Assembly: GCA_013420905.1 (NCBI GenBank)
Contig: JAAXNY010000012.1
Coordinates: 802,783 to 866,782 of the forward strand
Origin: Collybia mongolica
Taxonomy: Eukaryota > Basidiomycota > Agaricomycetes > Agaricales > Clitocybaceae
Reading direction: 5' to 3'
DNA length: 64,000 bases
The position numbers and the translations under genes were made by a program. Of the stretch, positions 459 to 64,000 are shown piece by piece. The notes beneath the pieces were generated by a model. That model worked only from the letters and a program-made list of their open reading frames with translations. It had not been told where the DNA came from and ran no database searches. How positions within the stretch are numbered: the stretch's first letter is position 1; every line of letters begins with the position of its first letter.

Positions 459-861
459 TGATAGGGCCCAAAAATTGTTTGCACTTGAGAAGTCAACAAG
501 TAAGGCTATTAGTATCATTTCTAATAACCAAGTTAATGGTAATAGAGGATTAGAGTCAAGCTCTGAGATGGCTAATCAGAGTGAACTAGTCTAATGATTA
601 ATACACTATCAGTACAGAGGACTATGAGTATGGACTATTATTAGTTCTATTCACCATGCCCAGTTACAACCTTGGTATCTTAAATCATAAGTAACCATTG
701 TAGTATAATATCATTAGTCCAGGGATCATCATTAATAGGAGATGTAATTGTAAATTCAGGACTTGCACAACCCAAGGCCAGAGTCTGATCAGGGGTGCTT
801 GGTGTTAACTACTGGAAAGACAGGACACTGTAAATAACAACTGGAATGATTAGGAGAAGTA

Positions 862-1083
862 CAGTAGGCAATAAAACCATTTCAATGTTTTCACATTCTG
901 TAAAGATGCATCCATATGTCAGAAAATAAAAATTGGAAAAATATGAAAGAATTACAGAAGCTGCATTGATGTCATATAATGTTGCTTATATAATGTCTTT
1001 GCACCACTTCCATTTTTGGTAGCAAAATCACAGGATACATACAAAGCCATCATTGAAACGGTTTTGTTGCCCATTATTAAAAA
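862..1083. repeat. Left terminal inverted repeat of the Tc1/mariner element
   Basis: About 222 bp, matching the reverse complement of 2150-2371 with only a handful of differences. The outer end CAGTAGGCAAYAAAACCATTTCAATG recurs inverted at the inner end (about 1048-1076), so each repeat can itself fold back. Confidence 0.9.
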
Positions 1084-1100
1084 GTAAGAAAGTGGTAAAA

Positions 1101-2029
1101 CTAGTACTTGGTATATCCTCCTTTGGCCCTCAACACTGCAGCAATACATCTAGGCATGCTCTCAATCAATCCTTGACAGACAGACTTATCTATTGCTTCC
1201 CACTCTTTCTCCACTTGCTCCCAAAGCTCATGCTGGCTGTGTGGAGAATTTTCATATTCATTGAGCTTCATTTTGAGGTGATGCCAAAGATGTTCAATAG
1301 GATTCATGTCAGGTGACTGTGCAGGCCACTTCATAACATTGAAACTATTGTCCTTGAACCAGTTTTGGACCTTCTTGCTTGTGTGTTTGGGGTCATTGTC
1401 CTGCTGGAAGATGATATCAGCAGGGGTTTTCCCATAGTGATGAAGGGAATCTTGAAGCTCATCCTCCATGATGGATACATAGAGGTCTGCATCCATCTTT
1501 CCCTCAATCCTGGTTGCATATCCAACCCCATCCCACCCCATGCAGCCCCATACCATCACATTACCACCTCCAAACTTCAGTGTCCCCTCTACAATCCTAT
1601 CACTCAACTACTCCCCTACCTCTTTCCAGATCCATTTCCTTCCATCTGACCCCAGACAGTTAATTTTGGTTTCATCAGACCATATAACCCTTTTCCAGTC
1701 CTCCAGAGTCCACTCCTTGTGCCTTTCTGCAAAGTCCAACTGATCCCTCCTATGACAGGTTTTGAGAAGAGGCCATTTTTGTTTTACTGCAGGCCATAAA
1801 CCATGCTTTTTCAAGTTGCGACAAATAGTTTGGGAGGAAATGGATTGGTTGGTGACATCTTGAAGAGCTTTGGTGACTTGGACTGCATTATCAGCCTTGC
1901 CCATGCAAATGATGTGCTTTGCATAGCTAATATTGGCAGAAGTGAGCTTGGAAGTGCCTGCATCAAGCAGTGTGATGACATGAGAGCACTGAGCAGGGGT
2001 AAGAGATCACATAGTGTGTTTGGGGGCAT
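1101..2029 (-). pseudogene. Tc1-family transposase, degenerate
   Basis: This is the cut-and-paste transposase of the surrounding element. From the ATG at 2029 the order is helix-turn-helix region (TPAQCSHVITLL..SYAKH), second HTH half (SISSQTICRNLKKHG), then the DDE domain. Catalytic residues are the Asp of WSDETKIN, the Asp of QQDNDPKH, and the Glu of NPIEHLW 34 residues further on (DD34E). Three lesions are visible: a one-base frameshift in the first codons, a TGA in the restored frame near codon 7 that looks like a former CGA, and an in-frame TAG at 1608-1610. Downstream of the TAG the frame is open to 1101. It cannot make a full transposase. Confidence 0.92.
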
Positions 2030-2071
2030 TAGAGCACTTGAACACTCTGTATTTATACTAAAATATGAGCA

Positions 2072-2122
2072 AGTCACATGACTTTGTTTAATACATTAAA
2101 CAATAAACAAAGTCATGTGACT
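2072..2122. repeat. Perfect 19 bp palindrome upstream of the transposase
   Basis: AGTCACATGACTTTGTTTA at 2072-2090 is repeated exactly inverted at 2104-2122 with a 13 bp AT-rich spacer. It lies between the transposase start at 2029 and the right terminal repeat at 2150, where a promoter would sit. It could be a protein-binding site or a hairpin; function is unknown. Confidence 0.8.
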
Positions 2123-2149
2123 ACAGTTAAGATCTCAGCACTTATTTAT

Positions 2150-2371
2150 TTTTTTACAATGGGCAACAAAACCATTTCAATGATGGCTTTGTATGTATCC
2201 TGTGATTTTGCTACCAAAAATGGAAGTGGTGCAAAGACATTATGTAAGCAACATTATATGACATCAATGCAGCTTCTGTAATTTTTTCATATTTTTCCAA
2301 TTTTTATTTTCTGACATATGGATGCATCTTTACAGAATGTGAAAACATTGAAATGGTTTTGTTGCCTACTG
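2150..2371. repeat. Right terminal inverted repeat of the Tc1/mariner element
   Basis: Reverse complement of 862-1083 with few mismatches. It contains the same outer and inner inverted 26-27 bp motif (inner copy at about 2158-2186, outer copy ending at 2371). Confidence 0.9.
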
Positions 2372-3084
2372 TAAAAGACAGTGCCACACTGTTTTAAAAA
2401 TAGCCAAGTGTGCTGCTGAGCATTGATAAGAGTTTAGCCAGCTCTCTTTTTATTGGCCAAGTAATAAGTAATAACATAATTGGCATGAATGGCATGCACA
2501 CCAAGTTGTAGAGGATGAGTCAGCATTAAAACATAAGCCCTTGGTGCAGAAAGGTCTTGTTCTGCATAAATCTTGATTAGAATCATCTCAAAGTATTTGG
2601 CTAAAGAGATCACAGAATTGAAGAGTTCAGTTCACTTGGAACTTAGTACTTGTATCATCCAATGGAATTATTAGGCACTTGGCCTTTGGTGCACTTGGCA
2701 CCTTTGTTTTAAAAAGTCACTTGGACTCATTGATATGTTTGGGATCATTAATAATTGAACATACACTTGGTACTCAGTCTAGTGAATTGAAAGATATTAT
2801 AAAATATACCTAAGGTCTAAACACTTGTATTAAGACTTTGTCCAAATTAAACCTGTTGAGAGATCAGTGAAAAGGCCTTGACTAGTACTATTTAAAAACT
2901 TAGTGCTTTCATGCACTCGAACCTGAACTCAAATCAGGCAATTCCTACTGTTTGTGTGTTGATTGTTAGATTTGGTGTGTGTGTGTGTGTAAGAGATTAC
3001 ATTTCATAACATCAGCACACTTATAGCCCAGGAGCCCCCTTTCACCAATGTGCAAGTGCAAGTGCCAATGCTGATGTCCAATGT

Positions 3085-36767: not shown

Positions 36768-38980
36768 TTTTTTTTTTTTTTTTTTTTGGGTCAACATTTT
36801 ATATACCAACTGTACCTAATACATGCGCTGGTCACTACGAGTAATGATTGGAGGAGTGGGGAGGGGGGGCAGAAGACAAAGCACCATGGAGCTGGGATGC
36901 TCGCCCAACTGGGGTCGAACTAGTGAATGGAGCCGGAGCTCATTGTACACAGGCTGGAAGGGCCAATCTACACCAGGGGGTAGGCCCCCCACTGCAGTGC
37001 CCCGCAGTGGGTGGTGGCTTCAAGTCCACCAATTATCCAGGTTCGCATGTTCTGGCAGGGAGCACCCTATAGCCGTCACTTAGAACACTGAGTACCGCCC
37101 CTAGCCTGTTTAGGATTAGGGAACATTGAACACGAAAGCACTCTCATTCTCTGAGAGGAAGTCAACCAGCCACGCATAGCGCAGCTGATGGCTGGGCTTG
37201 TCTTCCCATCCATGTTGTGGACAGTCATATAGGACATGTTGTACGGTTTCCAGGGGAGCACTGAACCTACAGGAGACAGATTCCTCTTTGAAGAACCAGG
37301 ACTGGAACGCCCCAATTGGAGCATGTCCAGTGATGCATTGCACCATGCAGGCAGTCAAAGCATGGCTGTGACCAGTCTTGTGCATCCACGGCCCATTGTT
37401 TACATGGGTTGGAGTGAGCAGGGTGTCCTTTTTCGCATAGAGCATCAAGAAATTGGAGCCAAATCCAATAGACTGAGTACCAAGTGTACGTTCAATTATT
37501 AATGATCCCAAGCGGATCTATAAGTCCAAGCGACTTATTAAACAAACAGTGCCAAGTGCACTAAGGCCAAGTGCCTAGTAATTCCAACAGACAATGTGGT
37601 ACTAAGTTCCAAGTGAACTAAGACTCTTTAATTCTGTGATCTCTTCAAACAATTCCAATCAAGACGACTTTGAAGCAATCTGAGCCTTAATTTGGGCATG
37701 CAATAGTGTTTTAACAAATGTGATTTGTATACTCTATAGTAGTGCAAAGTGAGGGCAAGATCCCTTACCTTTGCGCTACTCATCTACAGTCTATTTATAG
37801 TGTACAAACTAAATGTCATACGGAATTGTAAATTTTATACAGAACCGCGCTCCCCTGTGCCAAGGATCCATATTTAATGCTGACGCGTCCTCTATGACTT
37901 GGCGCGCATGCCATACATGCCAATTATGCTGTTACTGGTTACTTATCAAATATTGAAAGAGCTGGCTAAACTCTTATCAAGTCCCAACCATGCACTTTGT
38001 TATTTAAAACAGCGCGGCACTGTCATTTACTTCTCCTGATTGTCCTGGTTGTTATTCACAGTGTCCCATCTCTTCCAGTAGTTAACACCAAGTGCCCCTG
38101 ACTAGGATTGGGTTGTGCAAGTCCCGAATTTACAATTACTTCTCCTATTAATGATGATCCCCAGACTAATGATATCATACTACAACGGTTACTTATGAAC
38201 TAAGATACTGAGGTTGTAACCAGGCATGGTGAATAGGACTAATAATAGACCATACTCATAGTCCTCTGTACTGATGGTGTATTATCCATTAGACTAGTTC
38301 ACTCTGATTAGCCGTCTTGGAGCTCGACTCTAACCCTTTATTACCGTTTACTTGGTTATTAGAAATGATACTAATAGCCTTACTTGTTGACTTTATAAGT
38401 GCAAACAATTTCGGGCCCTATCAGCGCTGATGTGTGCCAGTTGGTGATCTTCAATCTCCACTCCATTTGTAATGTGGTGGAGGTGTATCTTGTGGATGGC
38501 GCGGAGCTGCAGCCAGGGCAGCAGCACATTGCATACTTTGAGGGTGGACGCTTGACCTGAGTGGTGAGATGTGTCGAGGGAACACCTAAGGGCATTGGTG
38601 GAGTCGGAGAAGATATGGACATCATGGATGTCCTCTAGTCCAATGTCAGCTGCCTGTTGGATGCCTTCCGCAATTGCTCGCAGCTCGGCGTCATCAGACG
38701 TAGAGAGGCCGGTAGCATACCAGTCCTCATATAGGTCCCCAGTGTGCCAGACGTGGTAGACTGTGACTGACTGCATGGGAGGGGGGGGAGTGGATGCATC
38801 AGTGACAATGCAGATGCTCCATGGGGAGTGAGAGGCCTCATTGACAGCGCTCTTCAGCAATGTGATGCGGTCCTTCATGAAATCCTTGCAGTGATCACTG
38901 CCCTTGGGTGGGGGGGTGATGATATTGTAGACTATGTGATCAGGGAACAAGTCCTTGGGGCGCATGCCTGGCTGGTTGAG
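36768..38980 (-). mobile_element. 5'-truncated LINE (RNase H-bearing non-LTR retrotransposon)
   Basis: Minus-strand element ending in a 20-nt poly-A (T run 36768-36787) and flanked by 14 bp duplications. It begins just upstream of the RNase H domain, so it is strongly 5' truncated, as expected of incomplete target-primed reverse transcription. RNase H residues are visible: Asp in CIVTDAS, Glu in DDAELRAI, Asp in IFSDSTNALR, and a final Asp in LAHISAD (38993-38430). After an LTR insertion the C-terminal part follows (37116-37460) with the zinc-binding pattern C, 10 residues, H, C (CRFSAPLETVQHVLYDC), the usual end of such ORF2 proteins. Inactive. Confidence 0.88.
37463..38423 (-). repeat. Truncated LTR (copy B) inside the LINE
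   Basis: Matches the LTR of the large Ty3-type element in minus orientation, from the TGATAGGGCCC start (at 38423) for 961 bp; about 255 bp of its downstream end, including the CCCTTTCA terminus, are missing. It splits the LINE reading frame between RNase H and the C-terminal zinc motif. CpG decay is intermediate between copy A and the young LTRs. Confidence 0.85.
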
Positions 38981-47569: not shown

Positions 47570-48786
47570 TGAAAGGGGGCTCCTGGGCTATAAGTGCGCT
47601 GATGCTATGAAATGTAATCCCTTACACACACACACCAAACTTAACAATCAACACACGAACAGTAGGAATCGCCTGTTTTGAGTTCGGGTTCAAGTGCTTA
47701 GAAGCACTAAGCTTTGAATAGTACTAGCCAAAGCCCTTTTCAATGATCTCCCAACGGGTTTGATTCAGACAAAAGCTTCAACACAGGTTTATAAACCTGC
47801 TAGGTATATTTATAATATTTCTCGATCCAATAGACTGAGTACCAAGTGTACGTTCAATTATTAATGATCCCAAACGGATCTGTAAGTCCAAGCGACTTAT
47901 CAAACAATACAGTGCCAAGTGCACTAAGGCCAAGTGCCTAGTAATTCCAACGGACAATACAATACTAAGTTCCAAGTGAACTAAGTCTCTTTAATTCTGT
48001 AGTTCTTCAATCAATTCCAATCAAGACACGTTGAAGCAATCTGATCCTTAATTCGGGCACGCAATAGTGTTTTTAACAAATGTGATTTGTATACTCTATA
48101 GTAGCGCGAAGTGGGGGCAAGATTCCTTGCCTTAGCGCTACTCATCTACAGTCTATTTATAATGTACAAACTAAATATCATATGGAATTGTAAATTTTAC
48201 ACGGAACCGCGCTCCCGCGCGCCAAGAATCTGTATTCAATACTGACGCGTCTACTACAACTTGGCGCGCGCGCCATGCGTGCCAATTATGTCGTTTACTG
48301 GTTACTTATCAAATATTGAAAGAGCTGGCTAAACTCTTATCAAGTCCCGACCGCGCACTCTGTTATTTAAAACAGCGCGGCACTGTCGTTTACTCCTCCT
48401 GATTGTCCTGGTTGCTATTCACGGTGTCCCGTCACTTCCGGTAGTTAACACCAAGTACCCCTGACTAGGATCAGGTTGTGCAAGTCCCGAATTTACAATT
48501 ACTTCTCCTATTAATGATGATCCCCGGACTAATGATATCATACTACAACGGTTACTTATGAACTAAGACACCGAGGTTGTAACCGGGCATGGTGAATAGG
48601 ACTAATAATAGACCGTACTCATAGTCCTCTGTACTGATAGTGTATTATCCATTAGACTAGTTCACTCTGATTAGCCGTCTCGGAGCTCGACTCTAATCCT
48701 TTATTACTGCTTACTTGGTTATTAGAAATGACACTAATAGCCTTACTTGTTGACTTTATAAGTGCAAACAATTTCGGGCCCTATCA
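47570..48786 (-). repeat. 3' LTR of Ty3-type element E1 (minus orientation)
   Basis: 1217 bp. On the minus strand it runs from TGATAGGGCCC (48786) to GCCCCCTTTCA (47570). Differences from the E2 LTR at 51616 are few (three in the first ~370 bp by eye). A purine-rich tract GGTATGGGGGAGA stands directly before its start on the minus strand, so this is the 3' LTR of a longer element, not a solo LTR. Its U3 start also adjoins the upstream region of gene Y. Confidence 0.92.
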
Positions 48787-48799
48787 TCTCCCCCATACC
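48787..48799 (-). other. Polypurine tract of E1
   Basis: Minus strand GGTATGGGGGAGA immediately upstream of the LTR start. It is the expected primer for plus-strand DNA synthesis. Confidence 0.75.
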
Positions 48800-49236
48800 A
48801 CAAATGTAGACTGTCCTCAGTCTCTCTTTGCCGGCAGGTTGGTCCAATACTTCGGGTCTGCACGCGTCTAATCTTTCAGTACAATGTTACAACGGTTCCG
48901 CTTTTAGACAGGTAGGCGCGCGATGTTGGGATCGAGCCCAGAGGTTTACTTCCCATCAGGATCGTGACAGTTATATACGTCTCCTGAGAGAGTACTTGAC
49001 ATTTGGACATCGCTTTACAGATATTTCAGTCATCTGGACATTTTTCTCGTTATGTTTCTGACACTTCAGCAAGAGATCGGTACTCCTGTTTGTTCTTTAG
49101 AGCTTCGCAATGCAGGGTTGTGCGTTTTAAAAAGCTCGCGTCCTTGCTAAGTTTTAGACAATTTGGACTTTATAGCCCATTTCTAAATCTCTTTGCTATC
49201 TGCATCGCTCAAACGCTCCAACCTTTTCAAACAGAA

Positions 49237-51186
49237 ATGTCTTCCACTTCTACTTCCGCCATGGCTCGTGCTCTGCGCTCGCCTTCCGCGCTGTCTCTCT
49301 CGCTCTCTGCCGCGATTCTACCGACTGAGGGCCGTTCCCCCACTATGGTCTATGTGGACCAGCCGGTCCCCTCATTTTCCGACCTCCTTGAAGATGCCGA
49401 GGGCGATGTCTTTGTCGCCATGGAGCAAGGGTGGATTATTATGGCCGAGGAACTCGCGCCCCGTATGGACCATCAGGGCCCCCTTGACCTCGACGAGTTG
49501 ATTGACTTCGTCGATCACTGCTCCATGCTCATCGTACGCCCATCTTTTACTTATTAAAACCTTTTACTTATTTACTGGTCTCAGGATGCCATCACTGGCG
49601 TGGTCCGTGGCGCGCGTTTTTCGCTGCCATATCCGGCTATTCTCCTCCTGTGCGCGCTTCACCTTCAAGTGATGCGCATCCCAGTCAACGCGCGCGAGGC
49701 TTCGTGGTCTTCCTGGCGCACGGTCATATCGACTGACCTGGGCCACAATTCCATTCTTCTGGTAAGTGACTTGTTTACTTCTTTACTCTGCCTGCCCTTG
49801 TCAAGCTGACTACCTTTTACTTTAGGGCCAGGCTCCCACTGTGGAGCAAGTCCTGGACCAGGTGGGGTCGCGCTTCGAGCGCGACAATGGTGAAAGTATC
49901 TTTCAGGATACTTTCCTCGTCCCTCCTCGCATGGTTGGTGCACCGCGCCGTTACCATCAGTACCGGGACAGTTGGTCCGCCGCGCCCTTGCCGGCGCGCT
50001 CCCCGGTCTTGGTACCCGCGGTTCGTTTATTACTGCTTTTTATTACTTTTCTTCGGTAGTTGACTTATTTTAATAGCCCCTCAAGCGGAAGCGTACAGCT
50101 GGGTCCAAGGGCAAAGGCCGTGCGGTTCCCCAGGTATATCCTTTACTTTATGAGTTTCACATTATTGCTGACTTGATTTCAAAATTCTAGTCCGACATGT
50201 CGCGCGCCCAGGGGACTGGCAGTGCTTCCGCGCCGCGTCCCTCGGAAGCAGGCCCGGTATGTCTCTTTTCTCTCTTGAAGTCATTTACTTTTACTCATCT
50301 TTATCTCCTTAGTCCTCTGGGCAGCCGCTGGTGAAGGTTGAAGTCCCTGAACTTCGGCTCTTCGATGATGAGATCGCCCGCCAGTTGGCTCAAGAGGGGT
50401 TCGCGGAGTTGTTGCCTCCCGCGGCCCCTTCTCCTCGTCGGTCGCGTAAGACCACTCGCTCTAGGGATAGGGCACAGGCGACACGCCGCAAGCACGCGCT
50501 GGTTCCCAACCGGGAGCTGACGCCACTACAGTCCCCCATTACCTCCCTGCTGGCTGACCTTGCGCCGCGGCGCTCTTCCGTATGTTTATTACTACTTTAT
50601 TTCTTGTTACTGATCATTTTTACTAGGTGGGCTATCCTTGCACGATGTGCGCCACCCGCGGCGACATTGAGTGCACCTTCAACGGTTGGGGTAAACCGTG
50701 CGTGGAATGCGCCACCGCCAAGAAGGGGAAGTGCAGCTTCAGCCTCACTCCCCAGAAGCGCGCTAGGCTCCGTGAGGATCTGGGGCCCATGCTTGGTGCG
50801 GGCATTTCTAGTAAGCCATCTTCTTTCCGTCTTTTTGTTTACTACTGATTTTACTTATTCTACTAGCGGTTGCTGAAGCCTATGCTCAGCTCAGCGACGC
50901 GGACACCCTTGCCGCGGAGGTCATTCAGGCCGCTAACCGCGCGCTTGAAATGCGCGACTCCTTGTTGGCGCGCATAGTTGGCACCATTGGTAGGTTGTAC
51001 GAGGAGGAAGGCCTGGAGGGCCTTCAAAACCTCTTGCTGACTACGCCAGCCACGGAGAGCGCCCTCCTCTTCTACGCGGACTTCCAGAATCTCCCTTGGC
51101 CGCCCTTGGAAGAAGAAGTAGAGGTTGATGACAGTTCTTCGTCGTCAAGATCTTCTGCGTCCGTGCCTGACAGCGAGGAGGAGTAG
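49237..51186 (+). CDS. Gene Y: antisense accessory protein of the Ty3-type element, Zn-cluster-like (copy 1)
   Basis: Eight exons: 49237-49533, 49585-49761, 49826-50020, 50077-50133, 50191-50256, 50313-50579, 50627-50810, 50867-51186. All GT..AG, phases fit, 520 aa. It lies on the strand opposite to the element's gag-pol. Residues 224-242 hold a nuclear-localisation-like PLKRKR. Exon 6 has a very basic run (RRSRKTTRSRDR). Exon 7 has six cysteines at 358, 361, 369, 378, 381 and 389, spacing C2C7C8C2C7C, close to fungal Zn(II)2Cys6 clusters (C2C6C5-12C2C6-8C). The tail is acidic and Ser-rich. Probably a nuclear, possibly DNA-binding protein; no known family recognised. The upstream 450 bp up to the LTR must contain its promoter. 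Confidence 0.85.
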
Positions 51187-51615
51187 CCGCGCCGCGCCCC
51201 CCCCCCACCTACGTTTTCTTTCTATATGTGTTTTCCCGGGCCCTAGTGCCCTTACATATCACTTATTCCCCCGCCTTTCGTTGGGCTTCAATTTTATTAA
51301 TTGAAGTCCAACACTTTGTCTTACATACAGTCCCTCGGACTATAAACAATGCTATTGATTTGGCTGTGGTTCTATTGTCTTCATAAGAAAGCTTCCGCCC
51401 TTGCCCCGGCTACTTAAGTTATAAATAGTACAGTTTAATTCTGGTGCAATTCTCTCGATCATTAAAAACCGTGGCGCGATCACTGACTTTTTATAGACAA
51501 TCTATTTCAATCCTTGTAACCTTGGTAAGGTTTTTCCAATTCGATTTTGCTTATACCCATCTCCCCCTCAACACTGATAACAACTGTCCCAGTTGTCATG
51601 CGGACACTGCCGCGC
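51187..51615. other. Downstream region of gene Y in E1
   Basis: No coding sequence. It matches 61801-62233 inverted, ends in GGACACTGCCGCGC, and stops exactly where the E2 LTR starts. Confidence 0.8.
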
Positions 51616-52833
51616 TGATAGGGCCCGAAATTGTTTGCACTTATAAAGTCAACAAGTAAGGCTATTAGTGTCATTTCTAATAACCAAGTAAGCGGTAATA
51701 AAGGATTAGAGTCGAGCTCCGAGACGGCTAATCAGAGTGAACTGGTCTAATGGATAATACACTATCAGTACAGAGGACTATGAGTACGGTCTATTATTAG
51801 TCCTATTCACCATGCCCGGTTACAACCTCGGTGTCTTAGTTCATAAGTAACCGTTGTAGTATGATATCATTAGTCCGGGGATCATCATTAATAGGAGAAG
51901 TAATTGTAAATTCGGGACTTGCACAACCCGATCCTAGTCAGGGGTACTTGGTGTTAACTACCGGAAGTGACGGGACACCGTGAATAGCAACCAGGACAAT
52001 CAGGAGGAGTAAACGACAGTGCCGCGCTGTTTTAAATAACAGAGTGCGCGGTCGGGACTTGATAAGAGTTTAGCCAGCTCTTTCAATATTTGATAAGTAA
52101 CCAGTAAACGACATAATTGGCACGCATGGCGCGCGTGCCAAGTTGTAGTAGACGCGTCAGTATTGAATACAGATTCTTGGCGCGCGGGAGCGCGGTTCCG
52201 TGTAAAATTTACAATTCCATATGATATTTAGTTTGTACATTATAAATAGACTGTAGATGAGTAGCGCTAAGGCAAGGAATCTTGCCCCCACTTCGCGCGA
52301 CTATAGAGTATACAAATCACATTTGTTAAAACACTATTGCGTGCCCGAATTAAGGATCAGATTGCTTCAACGTGTCTTGATTGGAATTGATTGGAGAACC
52401 ACAGAATTAAAGAAACTTAGTTCACTTGGAACTTAGTACCGTATTGTCCGTTGGAATTACTAGGCACTTGGCCTTAGTGCACTTGGCACTGTATTGTTTG
52501 ATAAGTCGCTTGGACTTATAGATCTGCTTGGGATCACTAATAATTGAACGTACACTTGGTACTCAGTCTATTGGATCGAGAGATATTATAAATATACCTA
52601 GCAGGTTTTTGAACCTGTGTTGAAGCTTTTGTCTAAATCGAACCCGTCGAGAGATCATTGGAAAGGGCTTTGGCTAGTACTATTCAAAGCTTAGTGCTTC
52701 TAAGCACTTGAACCCGAACTCAAAACAGGCGATTCCTACTGTTCGTGTGTTGATTGTTAGGTTTGGTGTGTGTGTGTGTGAAGGATTACATTACATAGCA
52801 TCAGCGCACTTATAGCCCAGGAGCCCCCTTTCA
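51616..52833 (+). repeat. 5' LTR of Ty3-type element E2
   Basis: 1218 bp from TGATAGGGCCC to GAGCCCCCTTTCA, with a (GT)n run near 52765. Rich in CpG, unlike copies A and B. It should hold the promoter and polyadenylation signals for the genomic RNA. Confidence 0.92.
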
Positions 52834-52835
52834 TC

Positions 52836-52853
52836 TGGAGCCCACCGCGAGGG
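52836..52853 (+). other. Primer-binding site of E2
   Basis: TGGAGCCCACCGCGAGGG begins two bases after the LTR. TGG pairs with a tRNA CCA end. I cannot say which tRNA. Confidence 0.7.
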
Positions 52854-53288
52854 TTCAGAGTTTTGAATAGTCTAAAGAGAGCATCTTTCTTTGAAAAATA
52901 TTATACCAAGACGAGTAACGTCGTCTACAAATTGAAGTAGAGCGGAGAAAGTTTAGTCAATCTGTCTCAAGAGCCGCGCCCACAAGCCAGCTCGTCAAAC
53001 AGACTAACTAATCAGCCACTTGCAAGACAAGTAGCTACAAAAACGCGGAAGACTAAAAATTCGCAAAACGCTGGAGCAACAGAGTCGTTACCACCTCCTA
53101 GGCGAGCGCGCACACGAGGATCTTCACAACCAGCCTTTGGATCTTCAGGACCAAGGCAAGTATTTAGAACCCCAGAGCCCTTAGGAAACATATCGACTAC
53201 TAGTAGACCAGTAGCGCGCGGAAGATCGTCCGTAGTAAACCCAGTAGCAAACCCGAACTCGTTAGCTACTCAGAACCGTTCAGTAATC

Positions 53289-54800
53289 ATGACTGAACCC
53301 CCTCGTAAATATATGCCCCAACCAGGCGTCCGTGATGCACCAGTATTCAAAGGAAAAGAGCCCACGGGTTTAATCCGGTTTCTGGAGCGAATGGAGGTCC
53401 TATGGAAGGAGTGTAACATTACAAATGATGAAGAAAAGAAGTTAATGTTGGGAAAATACGCAGACCTACAATCAGAGAATGAGTGGAGGGCATTAGACCA
53501 CTATAAGACAGGCACTTGGACGGATTTCAAGACAGAGTTGATCTCTAGTTATCCGGAAGCACTCGATCAAGTAGAAGGATCAGTAGCCAAGTTAGAGGCA
53601 GTGTGTCGCGCCAACCCACGTATTGGAGTAACCGATGAGGCCGCGCTGAAAAAGCTGAAGCGTGAATTCAAAGCAGAATCTATTAAACTCTTGGGAGTTA
53701 GGCCACCTATTATCTCTAACCGTGAATTAGTTACCAAGTTCTTGGGATGTCTAGACGAAGTCTTCAGATCCCAAGTACAAGGAAGGCTAACCCTGCTAGG
53801 GAATAATCAGTCTAATGCTACACAGGCAGGACAAGCCGTTGCTACAAACAACCGAGCAGATCCTAATACTATTGCCGAAGCCGCCGCGCTCGCGCGACGA
53901 AAAGGGGATCAGTACGATCTGGAGGAAGTTATAGCAACTGCAATCAGCATTTCTGAAGGTGTAGCCAACATGAATATTCCAGACACAAATAGATCGTTTA
54001 TAACGTCCGTAACAGCAACAGCAGCGCCCAAAATCAAAGTAGAGATGGATGAAATAAAACAACAAATAGTTAATTTGTTAGACCGTCTCCAAGTAAATGA
54101 GAAGAATACGAGGAGTGGATTCGAGGATGTAATGAAAGCGCTTCAACAAGCAACTGTTCAGAACCATGCCACAAATAGCGCACCCCAGCAGCATCAGTAT
54201 CAGAATCAGTACGGAAAGCCTAAAGAAGGACAACCGCAAAGACCAAATGCGTATAAATGTCACTACTGTTTTACACCCGGACACTTCATAATGGCCTGTC
54301 CCGAGAAACAGAAACATTTTGAGGAAGGGAAAATAAAAACCAACGCAAATGGAGGAGTATGCTTACCAGACGGATCATATATTCCAAGAGAACCAGAAAC
54401 GGTATCATTGAAAGATAAAGTGGAACACTTCCATTCAAAGAAGGTAGCGGCCCTTTATTACGGAGATGTCACAGAAGGACCCGCTCCAGGAGTATTGTCC
54501 GTTATGCAGTCACATAATGCAGTAGACAATAGTAACGACATTGGAACCTTGAAAGCCATAATGGCACAAATGGCACAATTTCAAGCGCAACAAATGTTAG
54601 GACAACAGAGCGCGCAAACCGCGCTGCCAGTAGCGCCTCAGATGCAGAAACAGGAATATATAAATAATAACTATAATCCTACGGCAAAGAGCGCGCCGAA
54701 CCCTGACATAGTAGCCTTACAAGCACAAATGAGTACTTTATTAGGGCAGGTAGCAGAACTCAATAACCAAAACAAGGTTAAAGAGTCGGGTTTCAATTAG
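53289..54800 (+). CDS. gag: Gag of E2
   Basis: Structural protein of the virus-like particle that packages element RNA; 503 aa from the ATG at 53289. It shows a helical capsid-like region (about residues 20-170) and one zinc knuckle CHYCFTPGHFIMAC (C2C4H4C) at about residues 324-337, followed by a Gln/Asn-rich tail. The frame is open but without ATG for about 115 codons upstream (to about 52940), Arg/Ser/Pro-rich, so translation may start at a non-AUG codon or the leader may be chance. The stop overlaps a slippery heptamer that leads into the protease frame. Confidence 0.92.
   Translation: MTEPPRKYMPQPGVRDAPVFKGKEPTGLIRFLERMEVLWKECNITNDEEKKLMLGKYADLQSENEWRALDHYKTGTWTDFKTELISSYPEALDQVEGSVAKLEAVCRANPRIGVTDEAALKKLKREFKAESIKLLGVRPPIISNRELVTKFLGCLDEVFRSQVQGRLTLLGNNQSNATQAGQAVATNNRADPNTIAEAAALARRKGDQYDLEEVIATAISISEGVANMNIPDTNRSFITSVTATAAPKIKVEMDEIKQQIVNLLDRLQVNEKNTRSGFEDVMKALQQATVQNHATNSAPQQHQYQNQYGKPKEGQPQRPNAYKCHYCFTPGHFIMACPEKQKHFEEGKIKTNANGGVCLPDGSYIPREPETVSLKDKVEHFHSKKVAALYYGDVTEGPAPGVLSVMQSHNAVDNSNDIGTLKAIMAQMAQFQAQQMLGQQSAQTALPVAPQMQKQEYINNNYNPTAKSAPNPDIVALQAQMSTLLGQVAELNNQNKVKESGFN
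54788..54794 (+). promoter_or_regulatory. Gag-to-protease -1 frameshift site
   Basis: The heptamer G GGT TTC in the gag frame (codons GGT TTC) fits the X XXY YYZ rule. Slipping back one base enters the frame that reads CAA TTA GGT CCG ATG AAG, the protease ORF. It sits two codons before the gag TAG. A hairpin GACCTA-CGAC-TAGGTC lies at 54831-54846, farther away than the usual 5-9 nt. Confidence 0.7.
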
Positions 54801-54805
54801 GTCCG

Positions 54806-56011
54806 ATGAAGGAGGCTAAGGAACACGCTAGACCTACGACTAGGTCGCGTTCCAAGAGACAGCCAGAGGACCGAAGTAAAAATAGAAATAGTCGTCAAGA
54901 AAGTAACAATTCAGAGAGTAGTCAGGATAGTAGTGAAGAGGAGTTGGTAGCGCCGTCTCCTAGTAAAAAGAAAGTAAAATTTGTTGAACCATCAGTAAAG
55001 TCCCCAGTACGAAAAGAATTACCCTACATCGATGTGCCCGTGGTACCCTACATACCCCGGAGAACGGAACGCAACCCTGAACCAGTTGATCCGCTACCTA
55101 ATTTTAACACTAAGCGCGGTCCGACTTATGAAACTAAGTCCCCGATAGAAGTAAAATTAAAAGGTGGCGATATAATTGCTAAAGTGTTAGACAACCCTAT
55201 CACATTGACCACGGGAGAGTTAATGGGCTCGTCAAAAACCATTAGAGATGGAATAAAGAATATTGTAACTGCCAGACGTAAGTCCCTTACCCAAAGGGAC
55301 GCTAACTTGCAAATAAACGGAATAGATGAGGAAGACGTCTTACCCTTTGGAGGGGACTGGGAACTTGATGATAACTACTTACGGCATGACGCGCTACCAG
55401 TAGAGTCAATCCCATTCCAGTCTTTCTTCATCTCAGAGTATGACCGCGGCGGAATACCTAAGGGATCTATAATATGCGGGGACCCAGTCCTACAGTATTT
55501 AGAATCTTTACCAGCCGGGGAAGAGCCCAAACAGTTGTATGTAGCAAAAGAATCGGCCTCTTTGCGCGCAGTATATCCAGTAATAAATGGGGTAGGAACG
55601 GAGGAATCTTTATTAGATGGGGGATCCCAAATAGTATCAATGGCTAAACAAACGGCTTTAGACTTGGATATTTCATGGGATCCGGACGTTGTCATACACA
55701 TGCAGAGTGCTAATAAACAAGTGGAGAAAACAGCGGGATTAGCGCGCAATGTCCCTTTCTTGTTTAATGACATGGCCATCTACCTCCAAGTACATATTAT
55801 AAATTCACCCGCATACAAAGTATTGCTCGGGAGACCGTTTGATACGCTCACGGAAAGTCAGATCAAAAATGCTCGGGACGGGGGACAAGTAGTCACTATC
55901 ACGGACCCGAACACGGGACGAAGGTGTACTATTCCTACCCATGCAAAGGGATCACCGCCTAAGCTGTTGAAAAGACAACCGGAGCAGGATTTTCGGCCTT
56001 CGATGAATTAA
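54806..56011 (+). CDS. Protease of E2
   Basis: Retropepsin that would cleave the polyproteins; 401 codons from the ATG at 54806, in the -1 frame relative to gag. The N-terminal 90 residues are Arg/Lys/Ser-rich ([15 protein letters not shown]). The active-site region is [13 protein letters not shown] (Asp at about residue 271; D-G-G in place of the usual D-S/T-G), with the second landmark [10 protein letters not shown] at about 340. It overlaps the open pol frame by about 50 nt, again in the -1 direction. Confidence 0.88.
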
Positions 56012-56139
56012 TCCAAAGTGATCAAGGAGAGCTAGCCGTAGAAATTGCTGAAGATGAGGACGGGAACTTTATTATAACGGGTTATAGACACCCTACTGAT
56101 AAGCGGAATTTTGGTCACAAAGAACTTAGAGATGTCTTT

Positions 56140-59100
56140 TTGTCTAGAAGTGATGTAAACATGAATAGTACAGTACCTGAACGCGAATTACTAGCCACGT
56201 ACTTGGCTTCTGTAGATGAGCGCGATGGACCAGTAATAAACTACGAGCAGAACAGTAGGGACCCAGCAAGCACACCCACTAGACCGCTGACATACGCTCA
56301 AGAACAGCCCATGATCAATAAAGCTTTAAGTAAATTAAAGCAGTGGCAAATTGGCACAAATGAGCGCGGTCTTGGAACGGCAACAAGTGAAAAGTGTAAT
56401 ATTGAGACCATGGATCAGCTAGTAGGAAAGAAGTATAAACCAGTACATTTGAAAACAAAACCAACACTGGCGGACCTGCCTGATAAATTTAGAATTATCA
56501 GAGATATAAAGGGCGACCCTTTAGCAGCCCTACCAGTTCTAACACCTAACCCACCTCCGTTTAAACCAACTGGGAGGTACACTGAGGAAAGGCGCGCGGA
56601 ATTCCAAAGAGTACACGAAGAAGAAAGCTTCTTAAAACCTAAAGAGATGGATATAATCCACGACTTTATGTGCAAACATAATGATGGTTTTGCTTGGAAT
56701 GATAGTGAGCGCGGTAGTTTTAAGAAGGAATATTTTCCTCCCGTCGAAATACCAGTAGTCCCACATACGCCGTGGACAGAGAGGAACATTAGAATCCCAC
56801 CAGGAATCTATGAAGATGTTTGTAAAATCATCAAGACAAAAATTGATGCAGGAGTCTATGAGAGATCCAATTCATCATACAGGTCTAGATGGTTTACCGT
56901 ATTAAAGAAAGGCCCAGGAAAGAAGCTTAGAATTGTACATAGTCTAGAACCACTGAATGCAGTCACAATAGCGCACTCGGGTCTACCACCCGCTACCGAA
57001 GAACTAGCAGAACACTTCGCAGGGCGCGCTTGTGGCGGAATGATGGATCTATATGTAGGATACGATGAGAGGCCTTTAGCAGAAACCTCGCGCGATCTAA
57101 CCACGTTCCAAACACCATTTGGCGCGCTGAGATTAGTAACACTCCCTATGGGATGGACGAATTCTGTTCCAATATTTCATGACGATGTCACGTACATCCT
57201 ACAGGATGAGGTACCACATGTCACAATACCCTATATTGATGATGTACCCGTGCGCGGTCCAGCAACGCGTTATGAACTACCGGACGGAACAGAAGAAGAG
57301 CTACCTGGTGCTCCAGGTGTTAGGCGCTTCTTCTGGGAACATATGCAAAATGTAAATCGCGTCGTACAGAGAATGAAGTATTCTGGAGGAACATTTTCAG
57401 GATATAAGTCTATGTTATGCGCAAGTGAAATTCTAGTGGTAGGACATAGATGTACCTATGAAGGACGAAAACCTACTACAGATAGAATCGGTGTAGTTGA
57501 AAGATGGGGACCATGCAAAGATGTCAGTGAAGTACGCGCTTACATGGGAACTATTGGTGTATGCAGGAATTTCATTAAAGACTTCGCCCGTATAGGTCAA
57601 CCAATTCAAAAGTTAACTAGGAGTAGTGAACCTTGGATATGGGGGCCTGAGCAAGAAGAAGCGCAGCAGCTATTATTAGACGCACTTAAAAATAGCCCCG
57701 CGCTCCGTCCAATTAATTACACCTGGAATACGCCAGTAGTACTGTCAGTAGATACGTCATGGAAAGCCGTAGGCTACTATATCTATGAGGAAGACCCTGA
57801 TATACCTGGAAGAAAGCACTATGCTAGATTTGACTCGATAACTCTGAATGAGCGCGAAGCGCGCTTCTCACAACCCAAACGAGAGCTATTCGGATTGATG
57901 AGAGTTCTAATGGCATGTTATTATTGGTTTATTGGAGTACGAAATTTGGTAGTGGAAACGGATGCAAAGTACATTAAGGGGATGTTATCAAACCCAAGTC
58001 TAGGACCTAATGCAACGGTAAATAGGTGGATTGATAGGATACTTATGTTCCACTTTACTCTGGTTCATAAAGCTGGTAAAGGCTTTGGCCCAGATGGTCT
58101 GTCAAGACGAGACGCGCGGCTAGGGGATCCTGTCTACCCGGACCCAGACGATGGTTACGACGAACCCTCAGGTCCTTTAAGGTTTATCAACCCAACGGAA
58201 GGATTGGATGACCCTTTGGAGCTGTCAGATTTTAAAGAGGAGATCGACACGCGCGGCGGATATTTATTCCAACTTGCGAAGGAAATCTCTGATTTTGAAG
58301 TGGAAGTAAACAATGCCTGGGCTGGTGAAGCAGCATTTATCGGAGAAGTAAAACAGCACTTAGGTTTAGGACGGTTCGGTATTCAAAGAGAAGCTTATCT
58401 AAAGCAACTTGTAAATACTACTGTCATACCCAATGAAAAGTTTAAATACGACCCTAATGTAAGGGAAGTATATGATGAGTCTAAACGGACACCTACGGCA
58501 CAGGAACAGGATAAAAACCTACCTTTAATAAAAGAATGGTTAAAAAGACCACAAAAGAGACCAAAAGGAATGACAGATCGCGCCTACCTAAAGTTTGCAA
58601 GGCAGGCATCTAATTTCTTTTTGGATCCAGAAGGCAGGATGTATAGGAAAAATATCGATAGCGCGCACCAGCTTGTTGTTGATAAAAATCACCGAACATA
58701 TATGATGAAGGCGTCTCACGATTCTGTTGGACATAGGGGTTTCTATGCAACAAAATCTTTAATAGATAAAAGATTTTGGTGGCCAGAAATGGAACGCGAT
58801 GTATCATGGTATGTGAAGTCATGTCACATCTGTCAGACAAGGCTTTTAACTTTGTTGAGAATCCCTCCTGTTATAACCCACACACCGTCTATATTCCAAG
58901 TATTGCATGCGGACACCATGTATATGAGCCCATCGTCTAACGGTTATAAATACATTGTCCAAGGAAGATGTGCGCTGTCTTCATGGATGGAAGGCGCGCC
59001 CCTCAAATCTGAGGACGGCAAGACCTTGGGAAGGTGGCTGTTCGAAGAAGTAATTTGTAGATGGGGTTCTCTAACGGAAATTGTAACGGATAATGGTCCT

Positions 59101-60006
59101 GCCTTTGTCGCAGCCAAAGCGTGGCTGGAATCCAAGTATGGTATTACAGGAATAAGTATATCACCATACAATTCCAAAGGAAATGGGATCGCCGAGCGCG
59201 CACATTGGGATGTGCGTCAAGCTGTCTTCAAAGCTACAGGTGGTGATGTAAAGAAGTGGTACGACTTCTTCCACCATGTAATGTGGGCTGACAGGATTAC
59301 TATACGGAGAGGGACGGGTTGCTCCCCCTATTTTATGATTACGGGCGCGCACCCAACCTTACCGTTAGATATCATTGAAGCCACTTGGTTAGTAAAGTTA
59401 CCAGGAAAAATATTGACTACAGAGGAACTCATTGGGTTTAGAGCGCAGGCTCTAGCTAAGCACGTCCAGCATGTGGCCGATATGAGGAAACATATCAATA
59501 TAGAAAAACGAAGGAGACTATTACAGTATGAGAAGGATCACAGCGCGACCATCAGAGACTATGATTTCAAACCAGGAAGTTTAGTACTAGTTAGAAATAC
59601 CGAGGTCGAAAGTTCGCTCGATAAAAAGCTGAAGCCACGGTACCTGGGACCAATGATAGTCCTGAGACGAAACCGCGGGGGAGCCTATATTGTTTGTGAA
59701 ATGGATGGATCGGTGTGGCAACATAAAGTGGGGGCGTTTAGGGTTATTCCCTATTTTGCTAGGAGTACAATTGAGCTGCCGGATAATCTGCAAGATCTAA
59801 TAGACATCTCTAGCGAAACATTAAATGCTTTAGTGGAATCGAAAGATCCCGCTAATAGACAAGTTTATAAGGAGCGTGACTATACCTTTGACAGAGTCCA
59901 ATTGGATCAGTCCGATTCAGAGTCAAGCTCTAGTGAAAACACTGAAGAGGGGATAGCGCCGGCGCTACCACAAACTACTATGTCACACCGGAAGTTGCAT
60001 AAGTGA
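56140..60006 (+). CDS. pol: Pol of E2: reverse transcriptase, RNase H, integrase
   Basis: Copies the RNA genome and inserts the cDNA. 1288 codons from 56140 (a TTG; the first ATG in frame is 56161, and the frame is open back to about 55963, so it is likely reached by frameshift from the protease). Reverse transcriptase: [12 protein letters not shown] and [15 protein letters not shown], catalytic YIDD at about residue 365. RNase H: VDTSW (about 534), [14 protein letters not shown] (about 605). Integrase: H-H-C-C zinc region ([15 protein letters not shown], about 858-898), Asp in LHADTM (about 923), Asp in TDNGP (about 984), Glu in GIAERAHW about 35 residues later, then a GPY-type [11 protein letters not shown]. 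The tail is acidic and Ser-rich without a chromodomain. Intact. Confidence 0.95.
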
Positions 60007-60152
60007 TAAATCAGTATGAAAACAGAAGCAGTAAAGACAGTGTAAGCAACGAAGCTAAGTAGTAAGGACAGTGTTAAACCGAGTAAAGACAGTAATACAA
60101 AGGAGCGTGGGGAGGGACACCATAACTAAGGAGGAAGTTAATTGGACTACCC

Positions 60153-61530
60153 TCAAGCAGATATGAAGTCGTCTTCAACCTCGGGCAAGGGCACATCAGC
60201 CGGAGCTACCTCCTCTTTATCATTGTCATCCTGGTCATGGACTTCGGTAGCGCTTGCAGTGGCAGCCTCGTCAGAGCCTCCCTCCAGAGCGGCCTCGTTC
60301 ATTAGACCGTTGAGGCGAGTAACCTCGTCCATAGTGGCGTCACGACGCTTCAATAAGAAGGACACTGTATGACTGATCTCCTCCAACTCAGCGCGGTAGT
60401 TTAAAAGCATCCTACCGAGGGCTTGCTTGGTGTGTGACAAGGGATCGCCCGCGTCAGCAATCAAGCGCGCCCGCGCTAAGACTACATCGTGCTCCTTGGA
60501 GGGACGGAAGTCAATAAAGACACGAGTATCTGATACACAGTCAGTATAAAAATAGAACCATCTATTATTAGAAAACGTACCCTCAGCAGATGCCTTTGGA
60601 TCTTCATCCGGGGTGTCCTGCCTCGTACGCTTTTTGGGACGAAGAGTGCTGCCGCGGTTGAGCTCGGAACGCTTACCGTCCTGTAGGAATAAGAAACAAA
60701 GTAATAGACAGAGCAAAAACAAGAATGGGTACCTTGATGGCAGCCTTTTCAGCCTTAGTCCTTTTGACACGGGGAACCTTAATGTTCTCCTTCTCCTTGC
60801 GACTACGGGTGATTGGTCCTTCACTAAGGAGACGACTAGTCACTGGTCCAGAGACAGTAGCGCTAGCCGTAGCGCCGGAATCAATGACCATATTCTTGAG
60901 TAAAGAAGAGACGCCATTGAGTATGTCGCGCACTGACAGCGCGGTAGCTAAAAAGAAACATACCGAGTCAGTACCAGACATTTCAATGTCACCGTCATAT
61001 TCACTGCCAGCAATGACCTCGCCTGGAATAGCGGGACTATCCGCATCACCACCAGTAGCAGGGACCTAGTACCAGAAAACCATGGTTTAAGAACAGTACA
61101 GTGCAAGATAAGGTAAAAAGCACGCACCGCGGTTTGAGACAGGTGCTCGGTGCGGACCTTTTCACGGTGACGGTGAATAGCGGCAGTAAGAGTCACAATG
61201 TTGCGGTAGACGGGCTCTTGAAGTAACTCGGGGTATACATGTTGTAGTCCCTGGAATGCTTTACGGACGCCAAAGATAACATTCTGCCAGGACCGCTCCG
61301 TCAAAACCATTTTGGACTCAGTCAGGAGTAGCTGTAAATTGTAAAAGTTGTTACGATAACGGCGTATATAAGTTAATTGGTAAAAAGTGTACCGCGGTTT
61401 CGCCTAACTTCCGGACGCTGACCCTTTGTTCAACAAGGGTGTCCATCGATAAACGAGCTTGAAAGGTGTGCCACTGAGCTTGGACCATCTTGAAGTTCTC
61501 GATGTCTTGATAGTTGGGGGGGCTAGTCAT
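60153..61530 (-). CDS. Gene X: antisense accessory protein of the Ty3-type element
   Basis: Five exons: 61530-61393, 61331-61128, 61065-60733, 60680-60581, 60529-60153; introns 51-62 bp, phases fit, 383 aa. It lies opposite to gag-pol, 147 bp beyond the pol stop, tail-to-tail with pol. Exons 1-2 are helical (MVQAQWHTFQARLSMDTL; ERSWQNVIFGVRKAFQGL). The end of exon 3 and exon 4 carry basic patches (KVPRVKRTKAEKAAIK, RPKKRTR) that could be nuclear signals. Exon 5 is helical (HTKQALGRMLLNYRAELEEISHTVSFLL in parts) with an acidic tail. I do not recognise the family. An earlier in-frame Met at 61617 is possible. Follows gene Y on the same strand. Confidence 0.8.
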
Positions 61531-62233
61531 AATGATGCAGAGGAAATTGATTCTTCGAACCAGAACGTTGTAAAGAGAGTATAATAGAGTTGGGCGATGT
61601 CTTGGGACAAAAAGCACAGCCAGTGCCCTTTTTATACCTCTACGACTAGAGAAGTGCTACCCAGTCTCTCATTCGTTGCGCGCGTTCTATCCCCAGAAAA
61701 ATCTATACATTTCAACTGAACAGGTCCGAGACGCGTGCCTAATTGAAATGCTGGGCCCAATTAAAAAAAAAAAAAGGAGCTCCGTAAAAATTCATGTGGA
61801 GCGCGGCAGTGTCCGCATGACAACTGGGACAGTTGTTATCAGTGTTGAGGGGGAGATGGGTATAAGCAAAATCGAATTGGAAAAACCTACCAAGGTTACA
61901 AGGATTGAAATAGATTGTCTATAAAAAGTCAGTGATCGCGCCACGGTTTTTAATGATCGAGAGAATTGCACCAGAATTAAACCGTACTATTTATAACTTA
62001 AGTAGCCGGGGCAAGGGCGGAAGCTTTCTTATGAAGACAATAGAACCACAGCCAAATCAATAGCATTGTTTATAGTCCGAGGGACTGTATATAAGACATG
62101 TGTTGGACTTCAATTAAAGAATTGAAGCCCAACGAAAGGCGGGGGAACTTAGGTAGCAGTAATAAAAGGGCCAGGGGCCCGGGAAAACACATATAGAAAA
62201 AAAAAAACGTAGGTGGGGGGGGGCGCGGCGCGG
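61531..62233. other. Spacer between genes Y and X
   Basis: Must contain the 3' end of gene Y and the promoter of gene X. A poly-A run lies at about 61765-61777. From 61801 on it is the inverted match of 51187-51615. Confidence 0.7.
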
Positions 62234-64000
62234 CTACTCCTCCTCGCTGTCAGGCACGGACGCAGAAGATCTTGACGACGAAGAACTGTCATCAACCTCT
62301 ACTTCTTCTTCCAAGGGCGGCCAAGGGAGATTCTGGAAGTCCGCGTAGAAGAGGAGGGCGCTCTCCGTGGCTGGCGTAGTCAGCAAGAGGTTTTGAAGGC
62401 CCTCCAGGCCTTCCTCCTCGTACAACCTACCAATGGTGCCAACTATGCGCGCCAACAAGGAGTCGCGCATTTCAAGCGCGCGGTTAGCGGCCTGAATGAC
62501 CTCCGCGGCAAGGGTGTCCGCGTCGCTGAGCTGAGCATAGGCTTCAGCAACCGCTAGTAGAATAAGTAAAATCAGTAGTAAACAAAAAGACAGAAAGAAG
62601 ATGGCTTACTAGAAATGCCCGCACCAAGCATGGGCCCCAGATCCTCACGGAGCCTAGCGCGCTTCTGGGGAGTGAGGCTGAAGCTGCACTTCCCCTTCTT
62701 GGCGGTGGCGCATTCCACGCACGGTTTACCCCAACCGTTGAAGGTGCACTCAATGTCGCCGCGGGTGGCGCACATCGTGCAAGGATAGCCCACCTAGTAA
62801 AAATGATCAGTAACAAGAAATAAAGTAGTAATAAACATACGGAAGAGCGCCGCGGCGCAAGGTCAGCCAGCAGGGAGGTAATGGGGGACTGTAGCGGCGT
62901 CAGCTCCCGGTTGGGAACCAGCGCGTGCTTACGGTGTGTCGCCTGAGCCCTATCCCTAGAGCGGGTGGTCTTACGCGACTGACGAGGAGAAGGGGCCGCG
63001 GGAGGCAACAACTCCGCGAACCCCTCTTGAGCCAACTGGCGTGCGACCTCATCATCGAAGAGCTGAAGCTCAGGGACTTCAACCTTCACCGGCGGCTGCC
63101 CAGAGGACTAAGGAGATAAAGATGAGTGAACGTAAATGACTTCAGAAAGAGACATACCGGGCCTGCTTCCGAGGGACGCAGCGCGGAAGCACTGCCAGTC
63201 CCCTGGGCGCGCGACATGTCGGACTAGAATTGTGAAATCAAGTCAGCAATAATGTGAAACTCGTAAAGTAAAGGATATACCTGGGGAACCGCACGGCCTT
63301 TTCCCTTGGACCCAGCATTACGCTTCCGCTTGAGGGGCTATTAAAATAAGTCAACTACCGAAGAAAAGTAATAAAAAGCAGTAATAAACGAACCGCGGGT
63401 ACCAAGACCGGGGAGCGCGCCGGCAAGGGCGCGGCGGACCAATTGTCCTGGTACTGATGGTAACGGCGCGGCGCGCCAACCATGCGAGGCGGGACGAGGA
63501 AAGTATCCCGAAAGATACTATCACCATTGTCGCGCTCGAAGCGCGACCCCACCTGGTCAAGGACTTGCTCCACTGTGGGAGCCTGGCCCTAAAAGAAAAA
63601 GGTAGTCAGCTTGACAAAGGGAGGCAGAGTAAAGAAGTAAACAAGTTATTTACCAGAAGAATGGAGTTGGCGCCCAGGTCAGTCGATATGACCGTACGCC
63701 AGGAAGACCACGAAGCCTCGCGCGCGTCGACAGGGATGCGCATCACTTGAAGGTGAAGCGCGCGCAGGAGGAGAATAGCCGGATATGGCAGCGAAAAACG
63801 CGCGCCACGGACCACGCCAGTGATGGCATCCTGAGACCAGTAAATAAGTAAAAGGTTTTAATAAGTAAAAGATGGGCGTACGATGAGCATGGAGCAGTGA
63901 TCGACGAAGTCAATCAACTCGTCGAGGTCAAGGGGGCCCTGATGGTCCATACGGGGCGCGAGTTCCTCGCCATAATAATCCACCCTTGCTCCTGGCGACA
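62234..64000 (-). CDS. Gene Y, copy 2 in E2 (5' part of exon 1 outside window)
   Basis: Exons read on the minus strand: beyond 64000 to 63882, 63830-63654, 63588-63394, 63337-63281, 63223-63158, 63107-62841, 62793-62610, 62553-62234. Lengths of exons 2-8 (177, 195, 57, 66, 267, 184, 320) equal those of copy 1 exactly and all frames are open. Amino-acid differences are few, for example ELQLFDDEV against ELRLFDDEI. The six-cysteine motif and acidic tail are conserved. The start codon should lie near 64178. Confidence 0.88.

Follow-up and report, generated by a model that had tools for sequence, protein, structure and literature searches.

The 64,000-nucleotide stretch of the Collybia mongolica genome analysed here (the window; C12:802783-866782, its final base being the final base of contig C12) ends in a mobile element that is, judged by its sequence, a Ty3-type long terminal repeat (LTR) retrotransposon with two predicted spliced genes, X and Y, on its antisense strand. 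Comparisons among copies of this element show X and Y, as modelled, to be genes of the element that are kept under purifying selection. The original prediction of a Ty3-type element carrying two antisense multi-exon genes is confirmed by the anatomy of the window, by the sister copies and by this selection.

Element anatomy and sister copies

The element measures ~14.2 kb once the end recovered from a second contig, C23, is added (about 14 kb had been predicted), and comprises an LTR, a primer binding site, gag, protease and pol on the plus strand, followed by X and Y on the minus strand, a polypurine tract and an LTR. Pol (55963..60006, plus strand), open from 55963 and overlapping the protease open reading frame (ORF) in a different frame, encodes reverse transcriptase (RT), RNase H and integrase in Ty3 order. 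Its Pfam matches run RT, RNase H, Integrase_H2C2 and rve; RNase H and Integrase_H2C2 exceed the Pfam cut-off and RVT_1 and rve fall below it. The closest solved structure to pol is Ty3 Gag-Pol (7q5b; E 6e-28), covering RT-RNase H. Gene X (60153..61530, minus strand; 383 amino acids) is predicted to consist of exons 61530-61393, 61331-61128, 61065-60733, 60680-60581 and 60529-60153; it converges with pol, the two ends being separated by 147 bp, and its TATA box (GGTATAAAAAGGG; 61626..61638, minus strand) is identical in all 25 aligned sequences. Gene Y (62234..64000, minus strand) is represented in the window by exons 2-8 and part of exon 1 and runs on past the contig end; in sister copies the predicted product has 517 amino acids.

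The end of C23, reversed, overlaps the final 554 bases of the window over 556 columns with 0 mismatches and 2 gaps, and because of this end overlap we infer that C12 and C23 adjoin. Beyond the overlap, C23 continues with a polypurine tract (GGTATGGGGGAGA), a 1218-bp LTR, the tetranucleotide GCGC and then the expected resumption of E1, the element in which the target site lies. The 3' LTR begins 628 bp past 64000; 6 transitions separate it from the 5' LTR (99.5% identical). GCGC flanks the element on both sides, the 5' copy of this 4-bp duplication lying within E1 at 51612..51615 (plus strand) and the 3' copy on C23. A polypurine tract, a 3' LTR within 2 kb and a target repeat had all been anticipated past 64000 and are all found on C23, except that the repeat is the 4-bp GCGC and not the proposed 5-bp CGCGC.

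The genome searched for further copies comprises 45.97 Mb in 26 contigs, and the match counts given here for the X-Y and pol queries are lower bounds. A query spanning window positions 60010-64000 finds at least 40 matches, 34 of them full-span at 95-100% identity and 6 partial. X-Y accompanies 32 of the 40 listed pol matches at the expected offset (one, on C23, in part). The other eight, lacking a listed X-Y match, first seemed to be copies without X and Y; four of them were fetched and X-Y is present in all four, so that the limit on candidates scored accounts for the eight at least partly. In three further matches that were not fetched the distance from pol to the 3' LTR is as expected (~4.7 kb), and for the last, on C18, just 1992 bases remain on its contig. 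The predicted recurrence of the same order elsewhere in the genome is thereby upheld, with X-Y beside pol in all 36 pol copies tested among the 40 listed, and pol copies without X and Y, which had been named as grounds for refutation, were not found among these 36.

The 3' ends of the copies are similarly uniform. A polypurine tract and full LTR stand at the expected distance in 17/20 fetched copies, and a polypurine tract precedes the LTR in 17 of the 18 copies listed (the exception being L020) as well as in the window element. In L019 and L020 an LTR without a polypurine tract lies ~380 bp nearer than the expected 3' LTR. These two copies probably represent one locus, because they are 99.85% alike and sit at two contig ends. 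The nearer LTR of L020, which has ACGG on either side in the manner of a solo LTR, was rejected as the copy's own 3' LTR on account of its position, its lack of a polypurine tract and these flanks, and is read as another insertion. No LTR was seen at the 3' end of L025. The two LTRs of individual elements are 97.8-100% identical (n = 20 pairs), with identical 4-bp flanks in 17/20; in L034, which lies beyond those 20, a 5' LTR was not found within the 1.3 kb fetched. Seven of the 20 LTR pairs are without any mismatch, and by this measure the family is young.

The 5' LTR of the window element (51616..52833, plus strand) is 1218 bp long and reads TGATAGGG...CCCTTTCA. Two nucleotides past it lies the 19-nt primer binding site (52836..52854, plus strand), complementary to the 3' end, CCA included, of a transfer RNA (tRNA) gene family; one member of this family is called tRNA-Leu by ARAGORN, and the family is read by us from its anticodon as a putative intron-containing tRNA-Lys, a reading that differs from the ARAGORN call. 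ARAGORN finds no tRNA gene in the window. Gag (53289..54800, plus strand; 503 amino acids) matches a zinc knuckle over residues 319-339 (26.3 bits, slightly short of the cut-off of 27), and the protease ORF (54806..56011, plus strand; 401 amino acids) has a weak gag-asp_proteas match below the cut-off. A chromodomain at the integrase end, a chromovirus feature, was not found in Pfam at E up to 1, where a highly diverged one is possible. Nor is there an envelope (env)-like sense ORF from pol to 64000, where the plus-strand ORFs of at least 80 amino acids measure 96, 114, 82 and 97 amino acids; in the window copy this listing stops 628 bp short of the 3' LTR.

Selection on the predicted genes X and Y

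Gene models were built by listing candidate GT-AG introns and choosing the chain that keeps the frame open, which gives 5 exons and 4 introns for X and, modelled from L014, 8 exons and 7 introns for the 517-amino-acid Y. Each gene begins downstream of its own TATA box, that of Y (GGACTTTATAGCCC) being identical in 22/24 sequences, with the other two showing a single G and most likely clipped at the alignment edge. The X-Y end was aligned across 25 sequences (L014-L037 and the window). All 11 introns are GT-AG in every one of them, and none has been lost. X is open in 24/25 sequences and Y in 22/24, the window copy of Y being incomplete; the frame-breaking changes are those of L026, in both genes, and L021, in Y. 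Exon indels in the other copies measure 30 nt (L035) and 9 nt (L036 and L037). Intron lengths deviate from the commonest by 1, 2, 3, 4 or 6 nt, and thus also by amounts that would break a reading frame.

Variation within the predicted exons follows the codons. Variable sites at codon positions 1, 2 and 3 number 23, 12 and 49 in X and 29, 34 and 95 in Y, a third-position excess with chi-square p values of 2.5e-6 and 7e-12, respectively, which are indicative only, the sequences being related. Diversity at the three positions is 0.0090, 0.0036 and 0.0239 in X and 0.0111, 0.0136 and 0.0497 in Y; it is 0.029 in the introns of X, 0.022 in those of Y and 0.023 between the genes. The ratio of nonsynonymous to synonymous variation (pN/pS) is 0.182 for X and 0.208 for Y in the predicted frames, and 1.38 and 2.33 (X) or 2.09 and 1.48 (Y) in the other antisense frames. 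One sense frame is low too (0.22 in X, 0.26 in Y), because its codons share silent positions with the antisense frame, yet it contains 11 stops in X and 17 in Y; another sense frame of Y has only 1 stop, but a pN/pS of 1.47. The genes of the plus strand were compared between the window and L035 (whose gag-pol is L058), giving pN/pS values of 0.09 for gag, 0.11 for protease and 0.07 for pol, alongside 0.20 for X and 0.21 for Y. The gene model of X has independent support from a Collybia nuda protein, the one relative of X among the proteins scored, which aligns over its full length (63% identical over 390 columns) and is unbroken across all four predicted X junctions.

CpG targets, probable methylation and the neighbourhood of the element

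Mismatches between the two LTRs of an element are strongly patterned. In 18 elements, transitions make up 43 of 44 mismatches, and CpG to TpG/CpA changes 34 of 44, CpG making up 106 of the 1218 LTR positions. This set omits L026 and L037, which have the most divergent LTRs, and retains L035, whose flanks also differ; with L026 and L037 added, transitions account for 80/88 and CpG to TpG/CpA changes for 53/88. Because such changes dominate, the pattern suggests that the copies in Collybia mongolica are methylated at CpG.

The target duplication is likewise centred on CpG. It is 4 bp long and conforms to NCGN in 40/40 flanks of 20 elements and in the window element; the flank pairs of L026, L035 and L037 differ, though each flank is still NCGN. 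Exact matches to the opening 25 bases of the LTR number 277 in the genome, of which 83 follow a polypurine tract and 194 lie elsewhere. These 194 starts include solo LTRs and perhaps duplicated segments, and are not all independent; 148 of them follow CGN and 193 follow YRN, where chance would give YR in about one quarter. Among the 100 rows listed, the starts without CG have CA or TG, as expected of deaminated CpG. Taken from these flanks, the preference of the family for insertion at CpG is near-absolute.

Members of the family are often found next to or within one another: L022 and L026 both adjoin LTR sequence, at almost identical positions and with the same 5' flank; L037 adjoins X-Y sequence; and the window element lies inside E1. 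E1 occupies 47570-51615 in the opposite orientation to the inserted element. It holds a 3' LTR (47570..48786, minus strand; 97.6% identical to the 5' LTR at 51616 and followed by ACGC, an NCGN site), a polypurine tract (48787..48799, minus strand; ending GGGGGAGA), a complete and open Y of 8 exons and 517 amino acids (49237..51186, plus strand) and part of the X-Y intergenic region (51187..51615, minus strand), where it is broken by the inserted element. The original prediction had taken E1 as placing gene Y next to the polypurine tract and 3' LTR, and E1 does contain all three within the window. Should C23 be the continuation of C12, E1 would be a mosaic: identity to the inserted element is 100% for its pol and X (C23:115883-120688), 96.5% for its Y half and 97.6% for its LTR, which may reflect recombination or an assembly fault. 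Diverged LTRs of the same kind are present at 37463-38423 (92% identical) and at 459-3044 (75-86%), the latter remnant being broken up and containing an inverted repeat (860-1094/2139-2373).

Proposed roles of X and Y and their known counterparts

Retroelements pass through RNA, and introns within them are expected to be lost. A sense-oriented gene with introns would be stripped of them once the genomic RNA underwent splicing. The introns of X and Y would instead read CT...AC in that RNA, would go unrecognised and unspliced, and would be copied intact through reverse transcription, so that antisense placement would let a retroelement retain intron-bearing genes with promoters of their own. We propose such protection because X and Y lie antisense and have retained their introns. 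The reading that we hold to be likely is that of a young multi-copy Ty3 family whose antisense X and Y, with their own promoters and introns, act for the element, their orientation preserving the introns.

What the two proteins would do is a weaker part of this proposal. X contains the basic stretch RPKKRTR and Y the stretch PLKRKR, both resembling nuclear localization signals, and Y has a six-cysteine cluster (C-x2-C-x7-C-x8-C-x2-C-x7-C) whose six cysteines are invariant in 7 distinct exon-7 sequences, an invariance that says little because these sequences are 98% identical to the first one. Identification of Y as a Zn2Cys6 (GAL4-type) factor was rejected, a Pfam zinc-cluster match not being found. 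Because of the nuclear-localization-like stretches and the cysteine cluster, a nuclear accessory role seems most likely; the proteins are probably nuclear accessory factors, and may act in trans as regulators of expression, of escape from silencing by CpG methylation or of integration-site choice, a kind of role suggested for the antisense ORFs of plant elements and known for HBZ of human T-cell leukemia virus type 1 (HTLV-1). A narrower form of this idea, which we regard as doubtful, is that a Ty3 lineage of mushrooms evolved X and Y as a two-gene regulatory module that only its antisense position allows the element to carry, and whose spliced, separately promoted nuclear proteins would oppose silencing by CpG methylation or direct integration towards CpG; if true, the element would insert at CpG, be silenced through CpG methylation and encode its own answer.

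Several other explanations bear on the same observations. X and Y could be captured host genes, carried as passengers or as cargo beneficial to the host, and their introns and promoters do resemble those of host genes; X, moreover, has its relative in Collybia nuda. Yet X-Y accompanies pol in every copy tested and is constrained among copies, for which selection between rounds of transposition would be the simplest cause; moreover, 32 of 38 listed X-Y loci adjoin a listed pol match, although a diverged host copy may be hidden by the limit on candidates scored. We therefore consider capture unlikely and, since it is across copies that selection operates, favour a trans-acting function for the element over host cargo. 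Fusion of the Ty3 element with a second, once independent mobile element would account for two genes without Pfam relatives that have their own promoters and form one block between pol and the polypurine tract; but in the window the block is not enclosed by direct or inverted repeats of at least 60 bp, and among the loci checked X-Y was not seen as a unit by itself, which leaves a composite very improbable.

It has also to be asked whether the antisense RNA matters and not the protein, by pairing with the genomic RNA and limiting copy number through RNA interference or transcriptional interference. With pol and X converging, the genomic RNA and the X/Y messages would overlap, and such RNAs are discussed for plant elements in parts of PMC7264820. 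Purifying selection at the level of codons and exon indels that mostly preserve the frame argue that the proteins matter, so that this explanation has only a slight chance of standing by itself, though RNA may add an effect. A purely local event, in which a pair of unrelated genes or a further mobile element entered one copy by chance, is refuted by the sister copies and has next to no probability: the order is the same in 36/36 pol copies tested, with the polypurine tract and 3' LTR equidistant in 17/20 fetched.

Several points weigh against the proposal that X and Y act as proteins for the element. Their transcription, splicing and translation are predicted from the DNA, and the nuclear role proposed for the products draws on their composition. 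Constraint on X and Y is weaker than on gag, protease and pol, their pN/pS being 2-3 times higher. The aligned sequences share ancestry, and two of them, L019 and L020, are nearly duplicates of each other. The Collybia nuda relative of X is without 9 residues in a stretch of exon 3, which may hide a 42-nt in-frame intron. For Y, protein searches, whose reach is that of shared 5-residue words, found no relative. Neither protein matches any Pfam family at E up to 1; among solved structures the best match of Y has an E of only 0.9, and the Collybia nuda relative of X has none at E up to 10. Structure models are of insufficient quality for use, with a mean predicted local distance difference test score (pLDDT) of 40 for that relative and 52 for Y exon 7.

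The RT-RNase H-integrase order of pol is that of yeast Ty3, which to our knowledge has no antisense genes itself. Among retroviral genes, HBZ of HTLV-1 is spliced. HBZ and other antisense retroviral genes have an antisense promoter and a nuclear regulatory protein, as outlined in parts of PMC7264820 and PMC11963269, the HTLV antisense promoter lying in the 3' LTR (PMC7264820). X and Y may be likened to HBZ in their antisense promoters and putative nuclear regulatory proteins, a proposed analogy; unlike HBZ, they are two multi-exon genes, each with an internal TATA box, and no sequence relation is shown. In the plant Ty3 elements Retand, maize Grande (gene23) and rice RIRE2, according to parts of PMC7264820 and PMC11963269, the interval from pol to the 3' LTR contains antisense ORFs. 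The plant antisense region is described there as conserved within families, Grande having its own promoter and a nuclear protein and the TRP28 domain of Retand being suspected of DNA binding. The Collybia mongolica element shares the position of this coding region and differs in being fungal and in having two genes with 4 (X) and 7 (Y) introns; the word "intron" is absent from the main text of both papers, and X and Y show no TRP28 (PF04195) match in Pfam at E up to 1. The bdelloid rotifer LTR elements Juno and Vesta have a captured, family-specific ORF3 after pol, which encodes enzymes or transmembrane or env-like proteins and is expressed from spliced messages (PMC5408684, in part); unlike these, X and Y are antisense and intron-bearing, features that the relevant parts of that paper do not report for ORF3s.

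Parts of a 2017 review (PMC5408687) describe sequence-specific integration in Drosophila ZAM-group errantiviruses, at the palindromic, CG-containing target CGCG, and call such integration exclusive to errantiviruses and their derivatives. The element studied here targets NCGN and shows no env-like ORF from pol to 64000, and its near-absolute CpG target is of interest in view of that statement.

Among the papers listed by searches of open-access full text, none was seen to report spliced antisense genes in a Ty3 element of a fungus, and none is described in the available portions of PMC9674265, PMC2864245 and PMC3411680. The view that two antisense spliced genes in a fungal Ty3 element are without a described counterpart is thus not contradicted by these listings, absence not being proven thereby. 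The persistence of 11 introns, across 25 aligned sequences, in predicted genes under purifying selection is a pattern for which the antisense position offers an explanation. The family would give the puzzling antisense genes of plant elements a parallel among fungi, one in which the genes are spliced and the constraint on them is measurable. With 7 of 20 LTR pairs identical, the family appears young, so that its expression, splicing and mobility should be open to experiment in the fungus itself.

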